Positions 15,303-28,297 of a stretch of 64,000 nucleotides of DNA are shown here, in pieces; position 1 is the first letter of the stretch; each line of letters starts with the position of its first letter. The notes beneath the pieces were generated by a model. The model worked only from the letters and a program-made list of their open reading frames with translations. It ran no database searches and had not been told where the DNA came from. The stretch spans positions 124,001 to 188,000 of the forward strand of contig JAFRRT010000033.1 of the NCBI GenBank assembly GCA_017427945.1, given 5' to 3'. The position numbers were made by a program, and so were the translations under genes. The DNA comes from Muribaculaceae bacterium. Lineage in GTDB: Bacteria > Bacteroidota > Bacteroidia > Bacteroidales > Muribaculaceae.

Positions 15303-16922
15303 ATGAAACACTATCTGAAGAAACTGGAGGAAACCGTCCACGAACAATGGACGCGTAAGGCCCTGTGTGACTACAATGGCGACTCCTTTACTTATGCTCA
15401 ATTGGCTACCAACATAGAGCGGTTCCGCATCTTCTTCGAGACTGCCGGAATCAAAAAGGGCGACAAAATCGCCATCTGTGCACGCAATTCTGCCCGATGG
15501 GCGATGACGTTCTGGGGAGTCAATGCCAATGAATGTGTGGCCGTACCGCTGTTGGCCGACTTTCACCCCGACAATGTCTCCAACCTCACGAACCATTCAG
15601 ACAGTGTTGTGCTCTTTGTTGACGACGACATCTGGGCAAAAATGAATCCCGATGATGTGCCCAATCTCAAGGCTGCCATCAATGTCAAGGACGGCAATAT
15701 GCTGTGGAACAAGGACAAAGCCGTGGCTGACGCCTGGGAAAACCGCAAGAGTGCTTTCAAGAAACGTTATCCTGACGGCATGTGGCCCGAGCAGGTGTCA
15801 TATCCCACCGACAACATGGACGACCTGGCGATTATCAATTACACGTCAGGAACCACGGGCAACCCCAAGGGCGTGATGCTCACCTATGGTGCCATGTCAG
15901 ATACCGACGACTTTGCCAACACACAGTTCCCGAACCAACCGGGCGAAACCATTGTCTCGATGCTGCCGTTGGCACACATGTATGGCCTGGCCATCGAGTT
16001 CATCCACCCCAATGTCGATGGTGTGACGGTGTATTTCCTTGGCAAAACCCCATCGCCCACAACGCTACTCAAAGCGATGCAGGACATCAAGCCCTATATG
16101 GTAGTCACGGTGCCCTTAGTGATGGAGAAAATCTATGCCAACGCCATCAAGCCTGCATTGGAGAAAGCAAAATCGTTTTTGGCTGTTCCTGGCTTGAACC
16201 AACTGATTTACCGTAAAGCCCGTAACAAAGTCATTGAGGCTTTCGGTGGCGCTGTACGCTGCTTTATCATGGGTGGCGCAGCACTCAATCCCGAGGCTGA
16301 ACGTTGCTTCAGGAAGATACACCTGCCTTATACCGTGGGTTATGGCATGACCGAAGCCTGCCCGCTGCTGGGATATGAGTGGTGGACCAGATTCGTGCCC
16401 GGTTCTTGCGGCAAACCCGTCCATGAACTCCGTATTGACTCGGATGACCCGCAACACATACCCGGCGAAATCCAAGCCCGTGGCCGCAACCTGACTATAG
16501 GTTATTACAAGAACCCCGAAGCCACTGCGGCGGCGTTTACCGAAGACGGATGGTTCCGCACCGGTGACCTGGGTGTGATGGACGAGAAGCGTAACATCTT
16601 CATTCGTGGCCGCATCAAATCGATGATACTGAATTCCTCAGGCCAAAACATCTATCCCGAAGAGGTAGAGTTTGTCCTCAACAACTGCCAGTATGTGGAA
16701 GAATGTCTTGTCGTGGACCGTGACGGCAAGATTGTGGCACTCGTTTATCCCGAGTACCCCGAAGGCATGACAGAGGAGGCAAAGGCCGCCATCCCAGGTC
16801 AAATCCGTGATGAAGCCAACAAATCCCTACCCGCTTATAGCAAGATATCAAAAGTGGAAATGATGGCAGAGCCCTTCGAAAAAACCCCGAAGATGAGCAT
16901 CAAACGCTTCCTGTATCGCTAA
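15303..16922 (+). CDS. AMP-binding acyl-CoA synthetase (long-chain fatty acid ligase type)
   Basis: A 539-residue adenylate-forming enzyme. The P-loop-like motif NYTSGTTGNPKGVML (about residue 180), the core GYGMTEACPLLGYEWW (about 340), the hinge-preceding GWFRTGDLG (about 418) and the C-terminal RFLYR after a conserved Lys (KMSIKRF) are all present. It activates a carboxylic acid with ATP and transfers it to CoA, probably a fatty acid by overall resemblance to long-chain acyl-CoA synthetases. Substrate length cannot be told. It is a single-gene unit with its own promoter and terminator. Confidence 0.88.
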   Translation: MKHYLKKLEETVHEQWTRKALCDYNGDSFTYAQLATNIERFRIFFETAGIKKGDKIAICARNSARWAMTFWGVNANECVAVPLLADFHPDNVSNLTNHSDSVVLFVDDDIWAKMNPDDVPNLKAAINVKDGNMLWNKDKAVADAWENRKSAFKKRYPDGMWPEQVSYPTDNMDDLAIINYTSGTTGNPKGVMLTYGAMSDTDDFANTQFPNQPGETIVSMLPLAHMYGLAIEFIHPNVDGVTVYFLGKTPSPTTLLKAMQDIKPYMVVTVPLVMEKIYANAIKPALEKAKSFLAVPGLNQLIYRKARNKVIEAFGGAVRCFIMGGAALNPEAERCFRKIHLPYTVGYGMTEACPLLGYEWWTRFVPGSCGKPVHELRIDSDDPQHIPGEIQARGRNLTIGYYKNPEATAAAFTEDGWFRTGDLGVMDEKRNIFIRGRIKSMILNSSGQNIYPEEVEFVLNNCQYVEECLVVDRDGKIVALVYPEYPEGMTEEAKAAIPGQIRDEANKSLPAYSKISKVEMMAEPFEKTPKMSIKRFLYR

Positions 16923-17129: not shown

Positions 17130-20100
17130 TTACCTCAGCACCTTGACGGTCGAACGGCTGCCGTCGGTGTAGCGGGTCTCAACGATGTTGACGCCCTCGA
17201 ACGGCTTGTCGCTCTCAACACCCATCAAGTTGTAGAAGCGTACACTCTCAACGGTCTTGCCGCTAACCACCTCGTTCACCTCGGTAACGTTGCCGTCCGA
17301 AGTCGTCCCGGCATTAAGCGGGTAAACGATATAGGCGGGAGTGGACTCAATTCCTTCAGTGTAGGGATTAATGCGACTGGGTGCGCCACTGGCAGGAGTA
17401 GCGTTATAAGCGGGATTCTTGCGTACAATCGCGTTGAAGCCATAAAGAACAGCGGGGTTGGTTGCAGATGAAGCAGCAAAGCAATCTGATACAGTCCTTT
17501 CGGCAGTTACTCCCTTGTCTTCACAAAGCGACATATTGGCCTTGAAACTGCCGTGGAACCTGAGGCCGTTAACCAAGTCACCCTCGCGCTCGGGAGCCAC
17601 AAAGACATCGCCGCTACCCGTATAGTAAGCCCAAACGACTTTGCAGAACTCTTGAGGCTTGGCATCCATCATGAAGTAGCTGCCTCCAGCCAGCTCATCA
17701 GTGCGATGACTCTGAGCGCCATCAGCGTCAAGGTTCTCCTGCAGGAAGTTTGCCGTGCAGTAATAGTTGGGCACATAGGTCGAGGTTGTCCCAGAAGATG
17801 TCTCAACAACGGGCTCGCCAGTCATTAAGATGGTCGGGTTCAAATCATCTTTATAGGTACCACTTACCGTACCTGCAGCCAGAATCTTGTTCTCAAATCT
17901 TAACTTCAACTCATCGAGCGTAGACTGGTAGTCAGCATGCGGTTTCCCGGTTACACTGCTCGGAATCAGAATCTCAATCCAGTTGCTCTGGTCATAGTCC
18001 TTCTGCGCAACCGTGTTAACTACGGTACCATTCTGGTTCTCAAATGCAATCAGATACTCATCCATGCCATCAGTGGGATAGCGCTTGTTGGCGTACATCT
18101 CATCGTCCTTGGCAAAGATGGCAAACTTGCCGTAGTTCTCGTCCCAGGTCACCTTGGCAGCCTGCAGCTGGTCAGAGATGGTATAATCGTGATCCTTTTC
18201 ACCAGTCGTTACCAAGTCTGCAAGAGTCAAGCTAGGCGTCTCCTCAACGCCCTGGACATAGAGGACTGCTTCGGTGCCAGCTTCATTGTTGTACCAACGG
18301 AAAGGATCATCATTAATATTTACACCTGTGTTAAAGCGCAGGTCATAGGAACCCTCCTGCACGAAGTAGCCATAGGTCTCACTGCCATAAATGGTCAATG
18401 AGTTGGCCGTCTGGGTATACCTCGTGCTCTTGTTGTCATGGGTCAGATAACCGTAATTAACATTGTATAATGTGTAGTCACCAGCGGTTCCACCCAGGGT
18501 GAATACGGTTGTCGAAGTGCCGGCAATGTTAATGTTGTCACCACTCCAAGCGACAGACTCAGCCAAGCCTTCTCCATGGAGCGCCAAAGGCTTAGGATCG
18601 CCATCCTCATAGACGATGATGTACTTGTTGCCAGCCACGAGCTGGTTGGTGCTGGTCACACGGGTGAAGAGGGTCTCGCTCAGGGAGACGTGGTGGTAGG
18701 TGGCAGTGGCGGTAGCACTGGTCTCACCACCACAAACGGCATAGGCCTGAACGCTGGGGTTCTCGGTCGCGCTATTGGTCACGGTGAAGCTGCCGTTATA
18801 GACCTCAAAGTCGCTCATCTCGTTAGTCTTGTAGTAGATGACAGCGTCCTCGTTGTTGGCCGTGATGGTACCGTTCATGCTGTTTTCACTGAAGGTGGCA
18901 CCATTGGCGGGCGAGATGGTCACGGTCAGCGGCACCTTGTAACCAGTCACAATAATGCTGGCGGTAGCCTCTCCATTGACCAGATTGATGGTGATCACTT
19001 CAGGGCTATCCTCGGTTGCCGTGCCATTGTAGGTCACACTCAAGGTGGTGCCCGACAAGGTAACGTTAAAGTTGCTGGCATTGCCATCAACGCTACTGAT
19101 GCTCGTCGTGCCGGTCACGTTAGTCTCGGTAACCGTCACTGTTTCGCTAGCCGATGTTTCACCAGCGGGAATTACCAAGTCAAGCGTCGACTGAACCGAG
19201 ATGCTGGGGGCTGCGCTGCGCTTGTAAATGTACGGCAAGTTCTGGACTGTTGAATTTGAAGCATAGCATGCGAAGATGGGGCTGCCATTATTGGGGTTAT
19301 AACGCATGTGATTGCGTGTATTACTGCCCTGGAAGATAATGGTTGCCGCGCCATCACTGGCAAGTGATATGGTTGCTTTTGCATTATCATCGGCGGTTGC
19401 CTCGGTCTTCAATTGGTTACCACTACTGCTTGCCGCATAGATGTAACCCTGGTTATCACCGTTGACGGTATGGAAGTACCAGTCATCAGTGGCAGCCTCA
19501 AGTTTGAAGATCTGAGTGGCATCGGTAGCAGTCACCTGCAGAGCATTCGACACCGTTACAGCGGTGCCAGGACGGTTGCTAGAGGCTTGCGTCGTACTCA
19601 TAGCATCTGCCGAGCCTGCTGAACCGCTGCTCACAAAGATGATTTCATCACCAGCTTTTAGGTTTGCGATATCCTTAACGAGCGTGAAGTCACCGGTCAG
19701 GACAACCTCCTTGGTGATGGTGAAGGTGCGGTTGTTGGCATTGATGGTGACGGTGTAGGTGCCGGCCTCGGGGAACCAGATGGGACGATACTTGACAGGA
19801 TTAGTCGGGTTGGTATCAATAGCGCCAGGCTGCTCGTTGTAACCATATTGCCAATCTGCTCCATTGTCCATCACAGCGCCAAAGAAGAGTCGGTTGTTGT
19901 CGTTATCCCAGGTATAGGTGAGGCCCGATGCCCTACCAAAGAGGATGTGGCTGTTGGCAGGGATATCGCTGAGCGTGGCCGTGTAGGTGCTGTCGCCATT
20001 ATTGGTCATCGCAATGGCCGGATTGGCCTGGAAATTCCAAGGGCTAACAGCATTGTCGCAGTAGATGTACAGGTTGGGCTCATACTTGACCGTGATTGTT

Positions 20101-21650
20101 TTGCTGGCGCCCTCGGTGGCTGCTGTAATCACGTCGGAAGCAATGAGGTCACGGCCAGTGTAAGTAACAGCAATAGTGCCGTCCACCGAACCATTATTCT
20201 GTTCGAATCCAACCCACGTGGAGGGAATAATGTTCGTCTCAGAAGAGAGGACAATGCTGAAGTCGTTATTCTGATGCGACACACCCAAGTTAAAGCCAGA
20301 AATGATGTTGCGGGCTTCTACATCGACTGTGTTGGCCGTGCCACTGTCATCGATAGTCAACGAGGTAGGGGTAAACGTAACGGTGGGATCAGAGGAAACG
20401 ACCTCCTCGGCCCAAATGGGATAAAATTGATAGGTTGTATTGTTTGATGTTTGATAAATTCCGACAAAGCCACGGACATTGTAAGTTTTATCTACAGTGA
20501 AGGTCGGCAAACCGGTTACATCAAACTGTTTGCGCAAGACGAAGTTAACGCCGCTCAAGCTAATGGTTTTACCGTCATTACTAACACTCGAAACCGTCAG
20601 ATTGTTCATCGTGGCGTACATGTTGAGGGGGGTGTCACCATTGATTGTGGACAACGCCACGGGCTCAACAGCCGTACCAGAGTTCGTGGAGTTGAAGGTG
20701 CTAGCGACGGGATTATTAAACTCGGGAAGGCCATTATAGACTATATTGCTGGCCTTCCAATCCGGATCAAGGATATCTCCATTGGAATAAGTGCCATCCA
20801 CAGTTCCATAAACCAACCCCCAGTCACTATCATCTTTAATGTAAAGATATTTGTTATCTTCGCTCTGATAAACCACAGTGGCTGAGCCAGCAAAGATGAA
20901 CTGACCAGTTTGAGTCAAAGCCTCAGCGATATCGGCAACACCTGTGACTTTGGTGAAAGTGGCCGAAGCAACACTACTGGATACGTCATTTTTTACAGCA
21001 ATTGCCTTGACGGTCGTCGTCGCATTGATGGTAAAGGAGCCAGAATAGAGCGTCGATGATGTGGTGGGATCGTTACCATCGGTGGTGTAATAGATGGCAT
21101 CGGCATCATCATGAGTTATCGTCACCTGTTTCGAGGTCGTGAACTCACCGCCATTGGGCGTGATCGTCGGAGCAGCTACCGTCGTGCCTCCAGCATCAAA
21201 GGTTACTGCGATATATCTAATGCCAATTGAGTTCGTTGTTGTATTAACAGTAAAACTAACTGAACCGCTTAGATTTTGTATATCATAAGTTAATTGAGCT
21301 CCCTCAGTTTGATTGGATGAGACGTTCTTGCTGACAGAATTCCCACCAACACTAACAGAAATAGAACCAGCACCACTTTTTGTAGTAGAATATCCAATGA
21401 GAACTCTACTAATGTTATTGTAGGTTATTGGCGAGGTTACTGTGATTGGTGACAATGCTGCTGTAACCTGTACACCTATTGGATTTGTATTGGAGTTATA
21501 CGCACGGCCATCTTTAGTGCCCGACCAGCTTACACCTTCGGTGGTTGTGCCCCATGACTTGGAATTAAAATAATACCAAGTTGTTGTCTCTGCCCAGCCG
21601 ACGGAGAAGGCGAGCAGGGCCGTTAATAAAAAGGTTAGAATTTTTTTCAT
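17130..21650 (-). CDS. Large multidomain surface protein with chitobiase-like domains and a type IX secretion tail
   Basis: A 1506-residue protein. A signal peptide (MKKILTFLLTALLAFSVGWA) is followed by a beta-sandwich region and a chitobiase/hexosaminidase C-terminal-like domain (FTTSKQVTITHDDADAIYYT, near residues 165-230). Next come an OB-fold-like region (residues about 235-420, with ALTQTGQFIFAGSATVVY), a region resembling SusE or starch-binding modules (SHILFGRASGLTYTWDNDNN), several repeated strands, and a second chitobiase-like domain (about 900-985). The end is a type A sorting domain (VESVRFYNLMGVESDKPFEG through TVKVLR). No catalytic domain is recognisable, so it is probably an adhesin or carbohydrate-binding protein. 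It is transcribed alone, from a promoter about 280 bases upstream. Confidence 0.8.
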   Translation of the reverse strand: MKKILTFLLTALLAFSVGWAETTTWYYFNSKSWGTTTEGVSWSGTKDGRAYNSNTNPIGVQVTAALSPITVTSPITYNNISRVLIGYSTTKSGAGSISVSVGGNSVSKNVSSNQTEGAQLTYDIQNLSGSVSFTVNTTTNSIGIRYIAVTFDAGGTTVAAPTITPNGGEFTTSKQVTITHDDADAIYYTTDGNDPTTSSTLYSGSFTINATTTVKAIAVKNDVSSSVASATFTKVTGVADIAEALTQTGQFIFAGSATVVYQSEDNKYLYIKDDSDWGLVYGTVDGTYSNGDILDPDWKASNIVYNGLPEFNNPVASTFNSTNSGTAVEPVALSTINGDTPLNMYATMNNLTVSSVSNDGKTISLSGVNFVLRKQFDVTGLPTFTVDKTYNVRGFVGIYQTSNNTTYQFYPIWAEEVVSSDPTVTFTPTSLTIDDSGTANTVDVEARNIISGFNLGVSHQNNDFSIVLSSETNIIPSTWVGFEQNNGSVDGTIAVTYTGRDLIASDVITAATEGASKTITVKYEPNLYIYCDNAVSPWNFQANPAIAMTNNGDSTYTATLSDIPANSHILFGRASGLTYTWDNDNNRLFFGAVMDNGADWQYGYNEQPGAIDTNPTNPVKYRPIWFPEAGTYTVTINANNRTFTITKEVVLTGDFTLVKDIANLKAGDEIIFVSSGSAGSADAMSTTQASSNRPGTAVTVSNALQVTATDATQIFKLEAATDDWYFHTVNGDNQGYIYAASSSGNQLKTEATADDNAKATISLASDGAATIIFQGSNTRNHMRYNPNNGSPIFACYASNSTVQNLPYIYKRSAAPSISVQSTLDLVIPAGETSASETVTVTETNVTGTTSISSVDGNASNFNVTLSGTTLSVTYNGTATEDSPEVITINLVNGEATASIIVTGYKVPLTVTISPANGATFSENSMNGTITANNEDAVIYYKTNEMSDFEVYNGSFTVTNSATENPSVQAYAVCGGETSATATATYHHVSLSETLFTRVTSTNQLVAGNKYIIVYEDGDPKPLALHGEGLAESVAWSGDNINIAGTSTTVFTLGGTAGDYTLYNVNYGYLTHDNKSTRYTQTANSLTIYGSETYGYFVQEGSYDLRFNTGVNINDDPFRWYNNEAGTEAVLYVQGVEETPSLTLADLVTTGEKDHDYTISDQLQAAKVTWDENYGKFAIFAKDDEMYANKRYPTDGMDEYLIAFENQNGTVVNTVAQKDYDQSNWIEILIPSSVTGKPHADYQSTLDELKLRFENKILAAGTVSGTYKDDLNPTILMTGEPVVETSSGTTSTYVPNYYCTANFLQENLDADGAQSHRTDELAGGSYFMMDAKPQEFCKVVWAYYTGSGDVFVAPEREGDLVNGLRFHGSFKANMSLCEDKGVTAERTVSDCFAASSATNPAVLYGFNAIVRKNPAYNATPASGAPSRINPYTEGIESTPAYIVYPLNAGTTSDGNVTEVNEVVSGKTVESVRFYNLMGVESDKPFEGVNIVETRYTDGSRSTVKVLR

Positions 21651-21929
21651 AATACTTGATAATTAAATGATTATAAATTGTTTTCTCGTTTTTGCCCTTT
21701 ACGTCAGGGGTTCGTTTTACAGTTCCTCACACGCCAGCGTTGACGCCACCAGGAGGAAGGGAAAAGGATAGACATTAACAAAAAAAGGTCCCCGAAGCCT
21801 TATAGGTCATGCGGCGACATGCGTCCGACAACCGTAAGACAATGGTTTCCATCTCTTTTGATTCATTGTTTATGTCTTAGTTCCACAGTAATCCCCGCAT
21901 GACGGGGAATAACTCCAATAATGTGCCGA
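21651..21929 (-). promoter_or_regulatory. Long 5' leader of the large surface protein gene
   Basis: About 270 bases lie between the -7 box and the start codon, with no reading frame of note. On the transcript strand there is a small hairpin close to the 5' end (TCCCCG/CGGGGA, 21892-21908) and, further down, a GC-rich stretch (about 21787-21840) ending in seven T residues at 21781-21787. I recognise no known riboswitch family. The leader may be regulatory or may only be long. Confidence 0.4.
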
Positions 21930-21937
21930 CAAAGGTA
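21930..21937 (-). promoter_or_regulatory. -7 box TACCTTTG for the large surface protein gene
   Basis: Reads CAAAGGTA on the plus strand. A TTG (-33 like) lies 20 bases upstream on the minus strand (CAA at 21958-21960), which is good geometry. Confidence 0.7.
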
Positions 21938-22173
21938 AGCATTAACATTGAAGTGCGCAATAATCCTTTCAGATTTTTTTGATTTATAAGCCACTATTTT
22001 CGGTGAACGAAACATTTTGTTCCGCCTCCGCCCCCATTTATTCAACAAAGTAGCCTAAATGAAAAATCTTAACAACTACCGTTTTTTTCAACCACAAGCT
22101 ACACTATAAAATTGATTTGAAAAATGGTTAAATCTGAAGTAGTGCTCAAAAAAATCTTATCTTTTTTGGTGAT

Positions 22174-22902
22174 TCAACTATTGGTGCCGAGGTAGGTGGG
22201 CCTGTCGAGGTTGCGGTAGGCGATGGCTTCCATGATGTGGTGGGTGAGAACGTCGGCGCAGCCTTCGAGGTCGGCAATCGTGCGGGCGACTTTTAGGATG
22301 CGGTCGTAGGCTCTCGCGCTCATGTTCATGCGTTCCATGGCGTCTTTCAGTTTTTCGAGGCCGGCGGCGTCGGGCTCGGCGTATTTGTGGAGCAGTGACG
22401 GGGTCATTTGGGCGTTGCAGTAGATGCCTGGTTCGTCTTTGAAGCGGCGCTCTTGCAGGGCACGGGCGGCGATGACTCGCTGGCGGATGGCGGCGCTGGG
22501 TTCGCCTGGGGCCTTTGATGACATCTGGTCGAAGTCGACGGGCTGGACCTCGATTTGCAGGTCGATGCGGTCCAGTAGTGGGCCTGAAATCTTGCTCATG
22601 TAGTGGCTGCGCTGGTACTCGTTACAGACACATTTTTTCTTGGGATGGCCGTAGTAACCGCAGGGGCATGGATTCATACTTGCCACGAGCATAAACGAGG
22701 CGGGATACTCGGTCGAATACTTGGCACGGGAGATGGTTATTACCCTGTCCTCCAACGGTTGCCGCATCACTTCTAACACACTGCGATTGAATTCCGGAAG
22801 CTCATCCAAGCGGAAGAAATGGTACCATTTCCACGCCTCTATCAACAGCACAAACGCCACAAAAACAAGCACCATATTTACCATGAAAGTATTCACAACC
22901 AC
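22174..22902 (-). pseudogene. 5'-truncated second copy of comM
   Basis: The last 210 or so residues are nearly identical (about ten differences) to residues 305-512 of the complete ComM encoded at 25143-26687. They keep the Cys-rich CPCGYYGHPKKKCVC segment and the C-terminal Mg-chelatase domain. The Walker A motif and the whole N-terminal lon-like domain are missing. The first 31 codons of the open frame (hydrophobic, ending KWYHFFR) have no counterpart in ComM and are probably a chance extension. Without Walker A it cannot be an ATPase. The differences from the complete copy are largely synonymous, so the copy probably came from a related lineage or diverged under selection before truncation. 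Confidence 0.85.
22190..22808 (+). repeat. Direct repeat copy A (3' part of comM)
   Basis: 619 bases align without gaps to 25156-25774, always at an offset of 2966. I counted 12 mismatches in the 120 bases from 22201. Homology stops abruptly inside the Walker B codons. Confidence 0.9.
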
Positions 22903-22986
22903 AAAGGTAATACAACAAAATCAAATTACTTGGGGCATAGGAATGGAAAAAAGCAAGCAAATTACTCCAATTTGTGAAATAATGCC

Positions 22987-22994
22987 TATATTTG
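22987..22994 (+). promoter_or_regulatory. Possible -7 box TATATTTG in front of the two small genes
   Basis: TAnnTTTG match about 50 bases before the TTG of the first small frame. The spacing of the nearest upstream TTTG (12 bases) is not ideal. Confidence 0.45.
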
Positions 22995-23042
22995 CAGTCG
23001 GATTGCCGGTCAATCCAAGACATTTTGAATTGAAGAAGCGTT

Positions 23043-23252
23043 TTGCTTTTACTTGTTATAGAAAACGTAGGAACTTTTCTTGAAGATGCAAGAAAGCAAG
23101 CGGTTCTCACGCTATGCGTGGGCTGCTATTTCCTCATCTTTATCTTCGGGTTTCCTACGACCTTCTATAGAAGTGTGGCAATTCAGTTCACGCTTTTTAT
23201 TATTATTTTATACCTGAATGGGCTGGTCAGGCATCCGATTATTGCACAATGA
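23043..23252 (+). CDS. Putative small membrane protein, 69 residues
   Basis: I do not recognise this protein. The frame opens with TTG, the only usable start, after a stop at 23031. It encodes a short polar region followed by two hydrophobic segments (about residues 20-36, TLCVGCYFLIFIFGF, and 44-59, SVAIQFTLFIIILYLNG) and ends RHPIIAQ. The stop codon overlaps the ATG of the next gene in an ATGA arrangement, which suggests translational coupling. The unusual start leaves doubt that it is translated; it could also be the remnant of a longer gene cut at the island edge. Confidence 0.4.
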   Translation: MLLLVIENVGTFLEDARKQAVLTLCVGCYFLIFIFGFPTTFYRSVAIQFTLFIIILYLNGLVRHPIIAQ

Positions 23253-23497
23253 TTAGATATGAATTAACATCAGAGATGAAATCTGGCATTAAGAATGTCA
23301 AAAACTACGATCTCTCAATGATTGACTTTGCTCATGAACATGGAATTATAATGATTAAAGACTTTTCTGATATTCCAATCGAGAAAAGGCCTATTCCATT
23401 TAATGATACCTATCTTATTGTATTTCAAGATGGAACATACGCTTTCTTTACATGTGCAGAGGAAGCTCTAAACAAGTTCATACAAGAGCTTTTATAG
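23249..23497 (+). CDS. Small cytoplasmic protein of unknown function, 82 residues
   Basis: I do not recognise the family. It begins MIRYELTSEMKSGIKN, has no signal or membrane segment, and alternates helix-like and strand-like stretches (DFAHEHGIIMIKDFSDI, NDTYLIVFQDGTYAFF, EEALNKFIQELL). Its ATG overlaps the stop of the upstream small membrane protein frame by four bases. AT-rich codon use marks it as part of the acquired segment. Pairing of a small membrane protein with a small soluble one is seen in immunity and toxin-antitoxin loci, but nothing in the sequence proves such a role. Confidence 0.55.
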   Translation: MIRYELTSEMKSGIKNVKNYDLSMIDFAHEHGIIMIKDFSDIPIEKRPIPFNDTYLIVFQDGTYAFFTCAEEALNKFIQELL

Positions 23498-23540
23498 TAT
23501 TATTAATACTTTGTAATGTTTATCAAAATAAGTTACTATT

Positions 23541-25064
23541 ATGACAAATATTAAACGTAATGGATTAATTATCCTTTTTGTATTGATTGGGACAATAATA
23601 GGCCAGGCCCAAAGCAGATTGTATGCAGATGTTAACGAAGATGGGGAAGTTAATATCGCTGATGTTAATGCCGTTATTGATGTTATACTTGGAAATTCGT
23701 CACCAGCTTCTTCGGGAATACAGTCGTTTACAGTAAAAGGTATTTCTTTCAAAATGATTTTAGTTGAAGGTGGAACTTTTACCTTAGGAACAGATTCCGT
23801 AGGTCCATCTGTGGCTCATCAAGTTAGGTTGTCTGACTATTATATTGGTCAAACAGAAGTTACTCAAGCTTTATGGGTCGCTGTCATGGGTACGAATCCA
23901 AGTGAGTTTACAGGAAATCTAAATAAGCCTGTTGAGAATGTATCTCGAGATGATTGCATGATCTTTATTCAAAAGCTAAACGAGATTACAGGTAAGAATT
24001 TTAATCTCCCGACAGAGGCTCAATGGGAATATGCTGCGTGTGGAGGTTCATTGAGCCAAGGTTACAAGTATTCCGGAAGTAATGATGTTGAGGATGTTGC
24101 TTGGTATAATGAGAATTCAGGAAGAATTACTCATGTTGTTGCTCAAAAAGCTCCTAATGAGTTAGGCTTATATGATATGAGTGGAAATGTTTGGGAATGG
24201 TGTAGGGATTGGTATGGCAGTTATAGCCCTGAAATGCAAGCAAACCCAACAGGTCCTTTGTCTGGCACTAAGCGTGTTTACAGAGGAGGGAGTTGTACCT
24301 CTGGATCTGGAGCCTGTCGAGCGAGGTTGCGTAATTCCTCTTCATCAAATACTAAAGTCGGTTTGCGTCTAGCATTATTGCCTGGTGAAACAATTATAGC
24401 AAATGGAGTTTCATTTACAATGATTCCAGTTGAAGGTGGAACTTTTGATATGGGGGCAGCCGATGATGATGTTGAAGCAAATGAAAATGAAAAACCTCAA
24501 CATCAAGTTACGCTGTCAGATTTTAGTATTGGTTTGACAGAAGTGTCGCAAGCTTTATGGGAAGCTGTTATGGATAACAATCCTAGTCAAAATAAAGCAC
24601 CTATCTATGCTGTTGAAGGTCCATCTTGGAGTGATTGCCAAGAGTTTATTCATAGATTAAATGTTATGACAGGCAAACAATTCAGGCTACCTACAGAGGC
24701 AGAATGGGAGTTTGCTGCTCGTGGAGGAAACTTGAGTTTGGGATATAAGTTTGCTGGAAGTAACAATATCAATGATGTGAATGAAAAATCACACCTTATG
24801 GGTGTTGGATCTATGATTCCTAATGAACTGGGGCTTTATAATATGAGTGGTTCAGTAGGCGAAAGGTGCCAAGATTGGTATGGAGATTACACTACAAATG
24901 AACAAATAAACCCAACAGGCCCCGTATCAGGCCCAGGAAGAGTAGTACGAGGAGGTTTGCGTCTTTATAATAACACTATAGATATTAGAATAAATTGTGT
25001 ATCTTACCGTGACTATTTACCTGATGAAGGATGTCATCCAATTGGTTTGCGTTTGGCTCTTTAA
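23541..25064 (+). CDS. Secreted protein with a half dockerin and two SUMF1 (formylglycine-enzyme-like) domains
   Basis: A 507-residue protein: signal peptide (residues 1-24), a single dockerin-like repeat (ADVNEDGEVNIADVNAVIDV, residues 29-48), then two tandem SUMF1/FGE-sulfatase domains (about 66-285 and 288-507). Each opens with the pattern F(K/T)MI-VEGGTF and carries EVTQALW or EVSQALW, LPTEAQWEYAA or LPTEAEWEFAA, and NELGLYxMSG. The first domain keeps the NVWEWCRDWYG and RVYRGGS core. The second has SVGERCQDWYG and RGGLRLYNN, which suggests loss of the conserved site. Most SUMF1 proteins of this type in Bacteroidales are not proven sulfatase activators; carbohydrate or peptide binding is as likely. 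A near-consensus box (ATACTTTG, 23506-23513) precedes it. Confidence 0.85.
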   Translation: MTNIKRNGLIILFVLIGTIIGQAQSRLYADVNEDGEVNIADVNAVIDVILGNSSPASSGIQSFTVKGISFKMILVEGGTFTLGTDSVGPSVAHQVRLSDYYIGQTEVTQALWVAVMGTNPSEFTGNLNKPVENVSRDDCMIFIQKLNEITGKNFNLPTEAQWEYAACGGSLSQGYKYSGSNDVEDVAWYNENSGRITHVVAQKAPNELGLYDMSGNVWEWCRDWYGSYSPEMQANPTGPLSGTKRVYRGGSCTSGSGACRARLRNSSSSNTKVGLRLALLPGETIIANGVSFTMIPVEGGTFDMGAADDDVEANENEKPQHQVTLSDFSIGLTEVSQALWEAVMDNNPSQNKAPIYAVEGPSWSDCQEFIHRLNVMTGKQFRLPTEAEWEFAARGGNLSLGYKFAGSNNINDVNEKSHLMGVGSMIPNELGLYNMSGSVGERCQDWYGDYTTNEQINPTGPVSGPGRVVRGGLRLYNNTIDIRINCVSYRDYLPDEGCHPIGLRLAL

Positions 25065-25086
25065 GGTGAATAAGGTTTTTTGCTGG

Positions 25087-25138
25087 ATAAGAAGTGCTCG
25101 TAGAGCTGATTGAGACCTGCTCTACAGGCATTTCTTAT
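25087..25138. terminator. Long two-stage hairpin between convergent genes
   Basis: The outer arms ATAAGAAGTGC and GCATTTCTTAT (10 of 11 pair) enclose the inner arms GTAGAGC and GCTCTAC around a 12-base loop. It sits between the SUMF1 gene and comM, at the right edge of the AT-rich segment. A bidirectional terminator is the simplest reading. Confidence 0.6.
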
Positions 25139-25142
25139 ATCA

Positions 25143-26687
25143 TCATAAACTACCCAGGTAAGTGGGGCGGTCGAGGTTGCGGTAGGCGATGGCTTCCATG
25201 ATGTGGTGGTCGAGGACGTCGGCGGTGCCTTCGAGGTCGGCGATGGTGCGGGCGACCTTGAGGATGCGGTCGTAGGCCCTCGCGCTCATGTTCATGCGTT
25301 CCATGGCGTCGCGTAACTTTTCTAATCCGGCGGCGTTGGGCTCGGCGTATTTGTGGAGCAGGGATGGTGTCATCTGGGCGTTGCAGTGGATGCCGGGTTC
25401 GTCCTTGAAGCGGCGCTCTTGCAGGGCGCGAGCGGCGATGACGCGCTGACGGATAGCGGCGCTGGGTTCGCCGGGGGCTTTTGATGACATCTGGTCGAAA
25501 TCGACGGGCTGAACTTCGATCTGCAGGTCGATGCGATCCAACAGCGGTCCGGAAATCTTGCTCATATAATGTGTGCGCTGATACTCGTTGCAGACGCATT
25601 TCTTCTTGGGATGGCCGTAATAGCCGCAGGGGCAGGGATTCATCGACGCCACAAGCATAAACGACGCGGGATACTCGGTACTGTATTTCGCCCTCGAAAT
25701 CGAGATAATCCTGTCCTCCAACGGCTGCCGCATCACCTCCAGCACATTTCTCGAAAATTCAGGTAGCTCATCCAGAAAGAGGACCCCATTGTGCGCCAGG
25801 CTGATTTCGCCCGGCATGGGGAAACTGCCGCCGCCCACAAGGGCGACAGGCGAAATGGTGTGGTGAGGACTGCGGAAGGGGCGTACGGTCATTAACGTGG
25901 TGCCTCGCGGCAGTTTTCCCGCAACGCTATGGATTTTGGTCGTTTCAAGGGCCTCACTCAGCGTGAGCGGCGGCATGATGGAGGGTAAGCGCTTGGCCAT
26001 CATCGACTTACCCGAACCAGGACTACCTACCAACAGGATGTTATGCCCACCGGCGCATGCCACCTCAAAAGCGCGCTTCACATTCTCTTGGCCTTTCACC
26101 TCAGCGAAATCGTAGGGGAATACGCCCTGCGCCTTAGCAAACTCGGCACGAGTATCCACGATTGTCGGCTCAAGGTCGATGGTTCCATTCAGATAGTCCA
26201 CCACCTGCGAAAGGTTGTCAGCCGGCAAAATCTTCAGATTATTGACCACAGCTGCTTCCATCGCATTGTCACGCGGCAGGATAAAGCTGTCAAGGTGCAA
26301 TTCGCGGGCAAGGATAGCCATGGGCAAAGCGCCCTTAATGGGCCGTAACGTACCATCGAGCGACAGTTCTCCCATAAGCAAGCAACGGTCCAAGCGTTCG
26401 GTGTTGACTTTCTCATCACCAGCAAGGATGCCGATGGCCAACGGCAGGTCATAGGCAGAGCCCTCCTTTTTGATGTCGGCAGGCGTCATGTTCACCATCA
26501 CCTTTTTGCCAGGGAAGTCATAGCCCGCCTGCTGAATGGCGCAGCGCACACGCTCGGCACTCTCCTTGACTGCCGTGTCGGGCAGGCCGATGACCATGAA
26601 TCCCACGCCCCAGTCGACCGTCACTTCCACCTCGACCTTGATGGCATCGATGCCCTGGACTGCCGCTCCTATCGTTCTTGCTAACAT
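25143..26687 (-). CDS. comM: YifB/ComM-family Mg-chelatase-like AAA+ ATPase
   Basis: A 514-residue protein of full family length. An N-terminal lon-protease-like (ChlI) domain (residues 1-170) is followed by the AAA+ Mg-chelatase domain with Walker A GSPGSGKSM (221-229) and Walker B LFLDE (303-307), four Cys in PCPCGYYGHPKKKCVC (352-366), and the C-terminal Mg_chelatase_C domain. ComM is a hexameric helicase that promotes branch migration during natural transformation in Proteobacteria; in Bacteroidetes the role is inferred. It lies 44 bases after cstA and is probably cotranscribed with it. Its 3' 619 bases are duplicated at 22190-22808. Confidence 0.93.
   Translation of the reverse strand: MLARTIGAAVQGIDAIKVEVEVTVDWGVGFMVIGLPDTAVKESAERVRCAIQQAGYDFPGKKVMVNMTPADIKKEGSAYDLPLAIGILAGDEKVNTERLDRCLLMGELSLDGTLRPIKGALPMAILARELHLDSFILPRDNAMEAAVVNNLKILPADNLSQVVDYLNGTIDLEPTIVDTRAEFAKAQGVFPYDFAEVKGQENVKRAFEVACAGGHNILLVGSPGSGKSMMAKRLPSIMPPLTLSEALETTKIHSVAGKLPRGTTLMTVRPFRSPHHTISPVALVGGGSFPMPGEISLAHNGVLFLDELPEFSRNVLEVMRQPLEDRIISISRAKYSTEYPASFMLVASMNPCPCGYYGHPKKKCVCNEYQRTHYMSKISGPLLDRIDLQIEVQPVDFDQMSSKAPGEPSAAIRQRVIAARALQERRFKDEPGIHCNAQMTPSLLHKYAEPNAAGLEKLRDAMERMNMSARAYDRILKVARTIADLEGTADVLDHHIMEAIAYRNLDRPTYLGSL
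25156..25774 (+). repeat. Direct repeat copy B (within complete comM)
   Basis: Partner of the repeat at 22190-22808, gap-free at offset 2966. It covers the comM 3' part from Walker B to a few codons before the stop. Confidence 0.9.
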
Positions 26688-26731
26688 GTCTTAATATCCT
26701 TTATCTCACGTCAATAGGGTAACCGATGAAA

Positions 26732-28297
26732 TCACTCACGGGTGAGGCGGGCAGTTGAGCGTTCTTTCTTGAGCCACGACGAGAACCACACGATAGCGAT
26801 CACAATGACTGCTAATGCTACCCAAGGTGTGAATTTCTCCTGTCCAATCGCCTGGGGAGAGGCGACGAGGAACGAAGTACAAACCACCGTCATAAAGATG
26901 GCGGGAATCAAAGTGATGATGTATGCCTTGCGTTCGCGTGCCAGATAGACCGTAATCATCCACAGGGTGAATACCGACAACGCCTGGTTGGACCAGCCAA
27001 AGTACTGCCACAACACGTTAAAGCCGTCAGGGTTCTCCATCTGCCAAATGAGCAACAGCAGCGAAGCCACAAACAAGGGCACACTGATCATCAGGCGGCG
27101 AACCATACTTTTCTGCTCAAAATGCAACGACTCGGCAATGATGAGTCTTGCACTGCGGAATGCCGTGTCGCCACTGGTGATAGGCGCTGCCACAACACCC
27201 AAGATTGCCAGTGTACCTCCCACAATGCCCAGCCAGCCGCTGCACACGATGTTAACAACCTGAGGCGCAGTAAAATACTGTATGAGCGTCTTCCCGTCGG
27301 CAAGTTCCACCTGTGCCATAAACTCGGTGACCTTCTCGGGGCTGACAACCTCTTTCCAACCACCATAATAGAAGAAATAGGATGAGACAGTGGCCCAGAT
27401 AAGCGCCACCAGACCCTCGGTAATCATCGCGCCATAGAACACAGGCCTTGCGAGGCGTTCACTCTTGAGGCAACGCGCCATCAAAGGGCTCTGTGTAGCA
27501 TGGAAGCCGCTGATGGCTCCACAGGCGATGGTGATGAACAGGCAGGGGAACAGCGGATTTTTCTGCATAAAGGCCACAACACCTATCACATCCTTACCGT
27601 TAACCGCCTGAGACTGCCGCCATGAGTCCATCGCACCCATATCCCACAGCTCAGGAAGATGCGGCATCTTCACGAACAGCCCTACCAGCAGACCGGCAGC
27701 CATCACAAGCAGTGCGATGGCGAACAAAGGATAAATCCTGCCAATAATCTTGTCAATGGGCAGCAACGTCGCTACCACATAGTATGCAAAGATGACCACA
27801 ATCCACAGGAGAGATTGTGACATAATCGACTCTTTGGGGAACATACCGCCGAGGATGAGGGCCGGGCTATAAACAAACACGGCACCCACCATCATCAACA
27901 GCAGCACAGTGAACACAAGCATCACGTTGCGAGCTCCGCCGCCCAGATATTTGCCGATGAGCGTCGGCAGGTTGGCGCCGTCATTGCGCAACGAGAGCAT
28001 GCCGCTCATGAAATCGTGTACCGCTCCGGCAAAGATGCAGCCCAGCACGATCCACAGATAGGACGCAGGGCCGAACCACATGCCCATGATGGCACCGAAG
28101 ATGGGCCCTGTTCCCGCGATGTTCAGGAACTGGATCATAAACACTTTCCACGTGGGCAAAGCCACATAGTCCACACCGTCGGCAAGGCGCAGGGCCGGTG
28201 TCTCACGGTCGTCGGGGCGCATCACGCGCTCCATCACTGCACCGTACACCAGATAGCCCAAGATGAGAGCCAAAAGGCTTATAATGAATGTTACCAT
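26732..28297 (-). CDS. cstA: Carbon starvation protein CstA-like transporter
   Basis: A 521-residue polytopic inner-membrane protein with about 13 hydrophobic segments. The CstA signature region is at the N-terminus (TWKVFMIQFLNIAGTGPIFG, FAGAVHDFMSGMLSLRNDG), followed by GAISGFHATQSPLMARCLKS, also typical. CstA proteins import peptides or pyruvate; the substrate in Bacteroidales is not established. The protein is shorter than E. coli CstA, as usual in this phylum. It has its own promoter and is followed by comM. Confidence 0.92.
   Translation of the reverse strand: MVTFIISLLALILGYLVYGAVMERVMRPDDRETPALRLADGVDYVALPTWKVFMIQFLNIAGTGPIFGAIMGMWFGPASYLWIVLGCIFAGAVHDFMSGMLSLRNDGANLPTLIGKYLGGGARNVMLVFTVLLLMMVGAVFVYSPALILGGMFPKESIMSQSLLWIVVIFAYYVVATLLPIDKIIGRIYPLFAIALLVMAAGLLVGLFVKMPHLPELWDMGAMDSWRQSQAVNGKDVIGVVAFMQKNPLFPCLFITIACGAISGFHATQSPLMARCLKSERLARPVFYGAMITEGLVALIWATVSSYFFYYGGWKEVVSPEKVTEFMAQVELADGKTLIQYFTAPQVVNIVCSGWLGIVGGTLAILGVVAAPITSGDTAFRSARLIIAESLHFEQKSMVRRLMISVPLFVASLLLLIWQMENPDGFNVLWQYFGWSNQALSVFTLWMITVYLARERKAYIITLIPAIFMTVVCTSFLVASPQAIGQEKFTPWVALAVIVIAIVWFSSWLKKERSTARLTRE

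Follow-up and report, generated by a model that had tools for sequence, protein, structure and literature searches.

Small cassettes bordered by 3' pieces of comM recur across an uncultured rumen genus of Bacteroidales

The window analysed here is a stretch of 64,000 nucleotides (nt) from contig JAFRRT010000033.1 of a Muribaculaceae bacterium (assembly GCA_017427945.1), and the subject is the comM gene, which occurs in it both as a complete gene and as a 3' remnant, with an AT-rich cassette between the two. Small comM-anchored cassettes of this kind form a recurrent system throughout an uncultured rumen genus of Bacteroidales, and the window holds one unit of it. Cassettes without a recombinase of their own probably accrete at comM via crossover in its 3' part, with a recombinase supplied in trans. 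The core of the locus comprises the following features.

25143..26687, minus strand: complete comM, encoding a 514-aa ComM (open reading frame (ORF) and Pfam); presumed entry port, with its 3' end as the presumed recombination region
22809..25142, no strand: AT-rich cassette between both comM copies (GC 0.381)
22187..22808, minus strand: comM 3' remnant, comM nt 914-1535, open in frame, found by sequence match to comM; distal cassette border
22174..22902, minus strand: 242-aa ORF in which a leader-encoded hydrophobic segment is joined in frame to the ComM C-terminal part (Pfam Mg_chelatase and Mg_chelatase_C)
22793..22910, minus strand: conserved leader (cassette end) spanning the 914 junction; model R1 matches here and in 33 other genomes of the genus (34/101)
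22911..23020, minus strand: outer part of the cassette end, parts of which are ~70-85% like the ends of other cassettes over short stretches

On the minus strand the window reads cstA, complete comM, 2.3 kb of cargo and the comM 3' fragment. The original prediction had described a 619-base direct repeat of comM without gaps (22190-22808 and 25156-25774), a left copy cut in Walker B and fused to unrelated sequence, a complete gene on the right and AT-rich cargo in between, and all of this was borne out: the copies match in the same orientation over 619 bases without gaps at an offset of 2966 bases, the left copy, fused in frame to other sequence, has its start in the part encoding Walker B, at comM nt ~914 (codon 305), and the GC content is 0.381 in the cargo, 0.575 in comM and 0.506 in the whole window. 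The copies have indeed diverged, but by more than the 12 mismatches in 120 bases first counted, as 92 of 619 bases differ (14.9%). Third codon positions account for 67 of the 92, and 204 codons contain 63 synonymous versus 10 non-synonymous differences, indicating that the copies diverged mostly under selection as protein. A fragment search of the window's own genome (39 contigs, resembling a metagenome-assembled genome, MAG) found only these two comM matches. Misassembly, which had been named as a refuting alternative, is unlikely because the copies are 15% apart and like layouts occur in many separately assembled MAGs. By Pfam, the ORFs of the window cassette include no recombinase, transposase, TnsF or YRec gene and no integrase or transfer gene (transfer genes were not profile-searched), and no phage structural genes lie between comM and its fragment.

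The same layout recurs across the genus. A search with the comM 3' half gave matches in 94 of 101 genomes, and at least two matches in 61 of them, a count based on the best five candidates per genome that includes split pieces and pieces on other contigs. These related MAGs carry the labels Muribaculaceae, Prevotellaceae, Porphyromonadaceae or Bacteroidales, and many come from rumen; the genomes are single representatives, mostly MAGs by title. Using a panel of comM genes to locate the pieces, 81 loci from 75 genomes were mapped (the window and 80 others, the selection of which partly favoured genomes with several comM matches), and 56 loci from 53 genomes contained truncated comM pieces. All 152 truncated pieces (median 124.5 nt) lie on the comM strand and none on the opposite strand, and 60 of the 62 pieces of at least 150 nt are open in frame, both totals including parts of a few comM genes that are complete or cut by the contig; the contig start truncates comM in locus L058, from genome G008 (6% contamination). 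Accessory genes lie between successive pieces, with 100 intervals longer than 300 nt (median 2.2 kb, longest 14.9 kb), and a remnant is present in 32 of the 46 loci with a complete comM and 4 kb downstream.

The borders of the pieces recur at preferred places. Right edges peak in the 1530s, which is the comM end, and left edges cluster at a few positions (914, 841, ~1378 and ~1427). With upstream flanks grouped by transitive links, 33 of the 34 pieces that start at nt 905-917 have one linked family of 245-nt flanks, and all 12 pieces at nt 838-842 have another common family; the window piece, with a mapped edge of 943, is absent from the first count. The 19 pieces at nt 1420-1439 have six unrelated upstream flanks, and the nine at nt 1370-1382 have four. 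Preferred start positions, two of them behind conserved cassette ends, are unlike what plain homologous recombination predicts. The leader of the window cassette holds a TACCTTTG/TATCTTTG box, which we take to resemble the -7 promoter element of Bacteroidetes. Conserved coding sequence was considered for the leader and set aside; on our own reading a TAG stands in frame in the L035 and L040 copies, and the leader was therefore treated as a DNA end or promoter. Five IMG/VR contigs (L113-L117) also carry comM 3' fragments, starting at codons ~215 (two contigs), ~281, ~307 and ~343; codon 281 corresponds to nt 841, and codon 307 lies close to nt 914. Faure et al. 2023 (PMC10293859) showed experimentally that Tn6022 and Tsy target a 10-bp region in the Walker B part of comM. 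Together, the start codons and this target place 914 and 841 at or near sites used by elements, and the phage contigs with comM 3' fragments suggest that comM may be a common attachment gene.

Comparison of related cassettes in different species shows how far the cargo and the adjoining comM have separate histories. The cargo of cassette c17-19 (2.25 kb) is 99.2-99.9% identical among genomes G024, G106 and G009b, in which the left comM is 88.7-91.6% identical; the cargo of c26-28 is 99.6-99.9% identical in four genomes, with the left comM at 73-77% in the three alignable pairs; and the cargo of cassette Y is 98.1% identical between G117 and G124. Past the right remnant, the sequence is unrelated among the c17-19 and c26-28 genomes, except for G109 versus G011. 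At a resolution of 40 nt, identity jumps in c17-19 and Y at the comM end; in c26-28 it does so close to the stop codon. In the best-resolved cases, cargo of 99.2-99.9% identity beside comM of only 73-92% indicates that a cassette moves as one unit whose borders lie at the comM 3' end. As for the order of addition, c26-28 stands directly after comM in G015 and G008b and behind a further comM fragment in G011 and G109; cassette Y stands directly after comM in G117, and in G124 a RhuM cassette lies between the two; and the sister genomes G036 and G115 have the distal remnant, a gene and the far flank in common at 92-96% and differ next to comM. The array-order comparisons that can tell thus indicate that new units adjoin comM.

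comM itself is a mosaic. Trees of its 5' 840 bases disagree with those of its 3' part, and the G025 and G092 genes differ at 35 sites in nt 1-905 and at 76 sites in nt 906-1545, as expected of a donor tract. Ten of the 15 long fragments that have their own complete comM are as close or closer to the comM of other species (one tie). In clade A, identity at four-fold sites of comM is 0.46-0.64 in the 5' half and climbs to 0.86-1.0 in nt 1423-1530, and three control genes of the region show no comparable rise, the last window of the ligase reaching 0.71. The mosaic identity along comM that the original prediction had suggested looking for is thus present as a tract, a tree conflict and a four-fold rise, and its proposal that the incoming comM 3' end came from relatives is supported at the level of the genus by the sister-pair tracts and the disagreeing 5' and 3' trees. 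Judged from sequence comparison, these data show that the 3' part of comM has been exchanged between species. In another family, the comM of L231 (G037) is GC-rich at its 3' end (GC4 0.73 vs 0.28) and includes a 52-bp stretch 90% identical to comM of the window genus, a pattern that suggests exchange between families.

In the mechanism that we favour, a cassette would arrive as a circle consisting of cargo and a comM 3' end, and one reciprocal crossover within the 3' part of the resident comM would insert the circle. The incoming copy would then complete comM, while the old 3' end would be pushed downstream as a remnant and decay later; because comM stays intact, insertion can repeat. In the genus, two observations suggest that a cassette brings a comM 3' end which makes the gene whole again: an intact comM stands next to truncated pieces, and G025/G092 have a donor tract. 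The unit of the window would be 22809-25142, and the remnant at 22187-22808 would be its distal border. Because no recombinase was found in the arrays, the recombinase must act in trans. It would be either an unlinked site-specific recombinase or RecA, and the former is preferred since the borders recur at preferred sites; both the carrier between cells and the enzyme are steps that we infer. The single-crossover insertion of a circular molecule first proposed for the window fits the closely examined cassettes, with both borders near the comM 3' end, but it is not the result of one accident and belongs to a recurrent genus-wide system with preferred starts. A wider formulation, to which we give somewhat less than even credence, is an integron-like system without a resident integrase: the comM 3' half would be the docking site, comM fragments would serve as the cassette sites, the recombinase would act in trans, and small cassettes of defence type and other kinds would pass between Bacteroidales species, with comM re-completed at each insertion.

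Searches for a recombinase covered the arrays and their surroundings. A narrow tyrosine-recombinase profile, built from 12 XerC/D-like proteins, gave one match in the 81 loci, and no homologue of the serine recombinase of phage contig L116 was found inside the arrays. PF07508 occurs in 9 of the 101 genomes of the genus, each time on a contig other than that of comM, with no comM within 1.5 kb. In a survey of tyrosine integrases near comM in 26 genomes (16 of the window genus), those on comM contigs, among the matches listed, lie ~16 kb upstream of comM in G014 and ~113 kb away in G000, the window genome. A resolvase-family gene adjoins the comM fragment in three of the five IMG/VR contigs. Phage records gave 23 matches, one of them at 80-90% identity, and plasmid records gave 52, of which the best among the matches listed reaches 68.3%.

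Several observations weigh against crossover by a site-specific recombinase acting in trans. A serine-recombinase profile had no matches in the 81 loci, and neither a circle nor an excised form was seen in these single representative genomes. The flank groups of the junction classes depend on the transitive linking described above. For the G033 copy of c17-19 (93%) and the RhuM cassettes (87-97%), similarity is roughly that of comM, which makes these comparisons uninformative, and the left comM tail beside c26-28 looks recipient-specific up to the stop codon, unlike the outcome of a simple single crossover. Some array comparisons retain little in common, namely the far flank in G094/G032 and the far flank and one gene in G025/G092. 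In the comM of G036/G115 the change point lies at nt ~786, upstream of the 914 site, and the G036 remnant, 97% like the comM of its sister but 98% like that of G105, is compatible with displacement without proving it. Five of the 15 long fragments are closest to their own comM. In L090 and L106, comM has gained ~73 bp at nt ~1195 in G121 and lost ~75 bp at nt ~1018-1094 in G094, and in both genomes the fragment adjoining the complete comM has the same indel as the complete gene; fragments of G009, G106 and G113 are likewise interrupted at nt ~1195 by a similar length. Finally, GC at four-fold sites rises as well, by 0.18 in clade A (14/14 genes), by 0.17 in clade B (12/14; 14 of 17 genes made up the clade-B set for four-fold identity) and by 0.04 in 17 other families (8/17; 17 of 20 loci), so the 3' rise in identity is partly compositional; biased gene conversion is a possible cause.

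Much of this could be expected if the comM 3' pieces were simply homology arms for RecA, on a linear or a circular donor and without a dedicated recombinase. Identities of 92-98% are common among complete genes and pieces from different species, which are mixed across the tree, identity at four-fold sites rises 3'-ward, the change point in G036/G115 lies outside the preferred junctions, the arrays yielded no recombinase, and some common blocks begin inside comM (nt ~925 and ~1274). However, the other inner block starts are alignment edges, with comM at background identity and the jump at the comM end, and unrelated cassettes use the same comM junctions, the 914 and 841 classes keeping conserved upstream flanks though their cargo differs. 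Plain RecA recombination explains the mosaic comM, but not the common junctions of unrelated cassettes, and as the whole explanation we consider it rather unlikely. A linear double crossover, once a candidate for the main model, was weakened when the identity jump was placed at the comM end.

Decay offers another route to the same picture: the cassettes would be immobile leftovers of integrative elements or prophages that once targeted comM, consisting of cargo and attR-side fragments. The IMG/VR contigs fit this, two of the five having fragments that start at or near 841 and 914 and three having a resolvase beside the fragment, as do the single cargo proteins that match phage families and the targeting of comM Walker B by Tn6022 and Tsy (PMC10293859). 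Yet comM is complete rather than interrupted, and small cassettes in which no integrase was detected have 99-99.9% identity across several species whose comM genes are divergent, which indicates that they moved recently in that form; this explanation therefore appears improbable. An old local tandem duplication of the comM 3' end, also named beforehand as a refuting alternative, would account for direct repeats in a single orientation, for the five fragments closest to their own comM and for the indels common to gene and fragment in G121 and G094. It is not the general answer, since the comM of another species is at least as close to 10 of 15 fragments as their own and the cargo differs between species, and the occurrence of the pattern in many separate assemblies also speaks against misassembly; together these two are very improbable, although local duplication may account for the five fragments. 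The reading preferred here is accretion at comM with a recombinase in trans.

The remaining features of the window are the cargo ORFs and a ligase beyond the array.

23541..25064, plus strand: 507-aa cargo protein with two FGE-sulfatase (SUMF1-like) stretches and a dockerin-like repeat just below the Pfam cut-off
23249..23497, plus strand: 82-aa cargo ORF, without a Pfam match
23043..23252, plus strand: 69-aa ORF that overlaps a repeat seen in other genomes of the genus; doubtful gene
15303..16922, plus strand: AMP-binding ligase; in 24 of the 81 loci its relatives stand beyond the comM region, on the far side

With the best two candidates per genome scored, the window cassette had no long match outside its own genome, and its shorter outside matches were to the FGE part, the repeat and the cassette end. 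The repeat is a stretch of ~190 nt (23020-23211) with inverted ends, judged by eye, that has copies of ~74-89% identity in many genomes of the genus and was found once inside the comM array of G077; it is possibly a small RNA or a repeat resembling a miniature inverted-repeat transposable element. It has no Rfam match, and no known RNA was matched in Rfam at E 1 within 21500-27000. Between the comM remnant and the AMP ligase, 17130-21650 encodes a 1506-aa protein with chitobiase C-terminal and Fn3-associated domains, which may be an older cassette with a decayed border. Across the arrays, the cargo comprises 226 ORFs of at least 90 aa, 97 of them on the comM strand. One hundred cargo proteins were scanned (98 of 145 cluster representatives and two window ORFs); their Pfam domains include, among the matches listed, AAA_14, DUF4143, TIR, GmrSD, RhuM and YhcG, they match 210 PADLOC models and are by sequence candidate defence families, and single members match phage families (tail protein, Ig structural protein, anti-repressor).

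Outside the genus, a different search found more than one comM-3' protein match in 14 of 294 genomes of the order, some of which, such as G176, are split pieces, and a single comM-3' match was found in each of four genomes from other genera of the same family. G261, from another family, has a row of seven additional comM 3' matches (two weak) that extends for ~78 kb downstream of comM on the comM strand (C6:92897-170955), and smaller versions of this row occur in G268, G298, G218 and G301. The arrays reveal a site at which accessory genes are stored and exchanged in an uncultured rumen genus, and an array may record past acquisitions in order, with the newest next to comM. Should a recombinase acting in trans prove responsible, the arrays would represent a new system for integrating cassettes, one in which every step restores a coding gene and which might also serve as a tool in Bacteroidales.

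Within the open-licence literature in PubMed Central, no paper was recognised as describing arrays of comM 3' remnants in Bacteroidales, and the system was compared with known ones. Integrons collect small cassettes in an array with repeated sites, adding them at one end, and have an intI integrase beside attI and foldable attC sites. The comM arrays likewise gain new small cassettes at one end, on the few comparisons available. No attC-like hairpin was found on either strand of the window comM end and remnant (z-scores -0.77 to 0.09, window copies only), and no intI-type integrase lies beside comM in the mapped loci (narrow profile) or in the window (Pfam); with no foldable site and no neighbouring integrase as far as tested, the arrays do not belong to the integrons. 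Elements of the staphylococcal cassette chromosome (SCC) type insert at the 3' end of an open gene, rlmH, that is kept intact, stack in tandem and carry ccr recombinases. The comM cassettes resemble them in 3'-end insertion, the intact gene and tandem stacking, but the ccr recombinases belong to SCC.

Tn6022/AbaR and Tsy have comM as a target in common with the cassettes, and their Walker B region matches the 914 junction. However, these comM-targeting elements split comM and carry a transposase or TnsF/YRec (PMC10293859), whereas comM of the window genus is kept whole and the window cassette lacks these genes; with comM uninterrupted and the remnant alone starting at Walker B, the cassette is not a member of the AbaR or Tsy group. 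Cis-mobilizable elements (CIMEs), as described in PMC5704250, have lost integration and transfer genes, keep att sites and are stacked in tandem at the end of a target gene. The flanking repeats of the target-gene end, with the comM 3' end on the left and a comM piece on the right, are similar; unlike CIMEs so described, the comM intervals are short (median 2.2 kb), genus-wide and in some cases near-identical across species, and the immediate surroundings of comM yielded no recombinase-bearing partner element. On this analysis the closest architecture is that of the tandem ssrA islands of Dehalococcoides, followed by CIME accretion. PMC3146451 describes islands arranged in tandem downstream of the transfer-messenger RNA gene and bordered by a 20 bp repeat of its 3' end, 16 of which carry an integration module with a serine recombinase and some of which have no module. 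The comM arrays differ from these in that their target gene is protein-coding, their pieces are up to ~700 bp long and searches found no recombinase inside them; both systems lie in tandem behind one gene, have repeats of its 3' end, hold accessory cargo, include units without an integration module and presume a circle.

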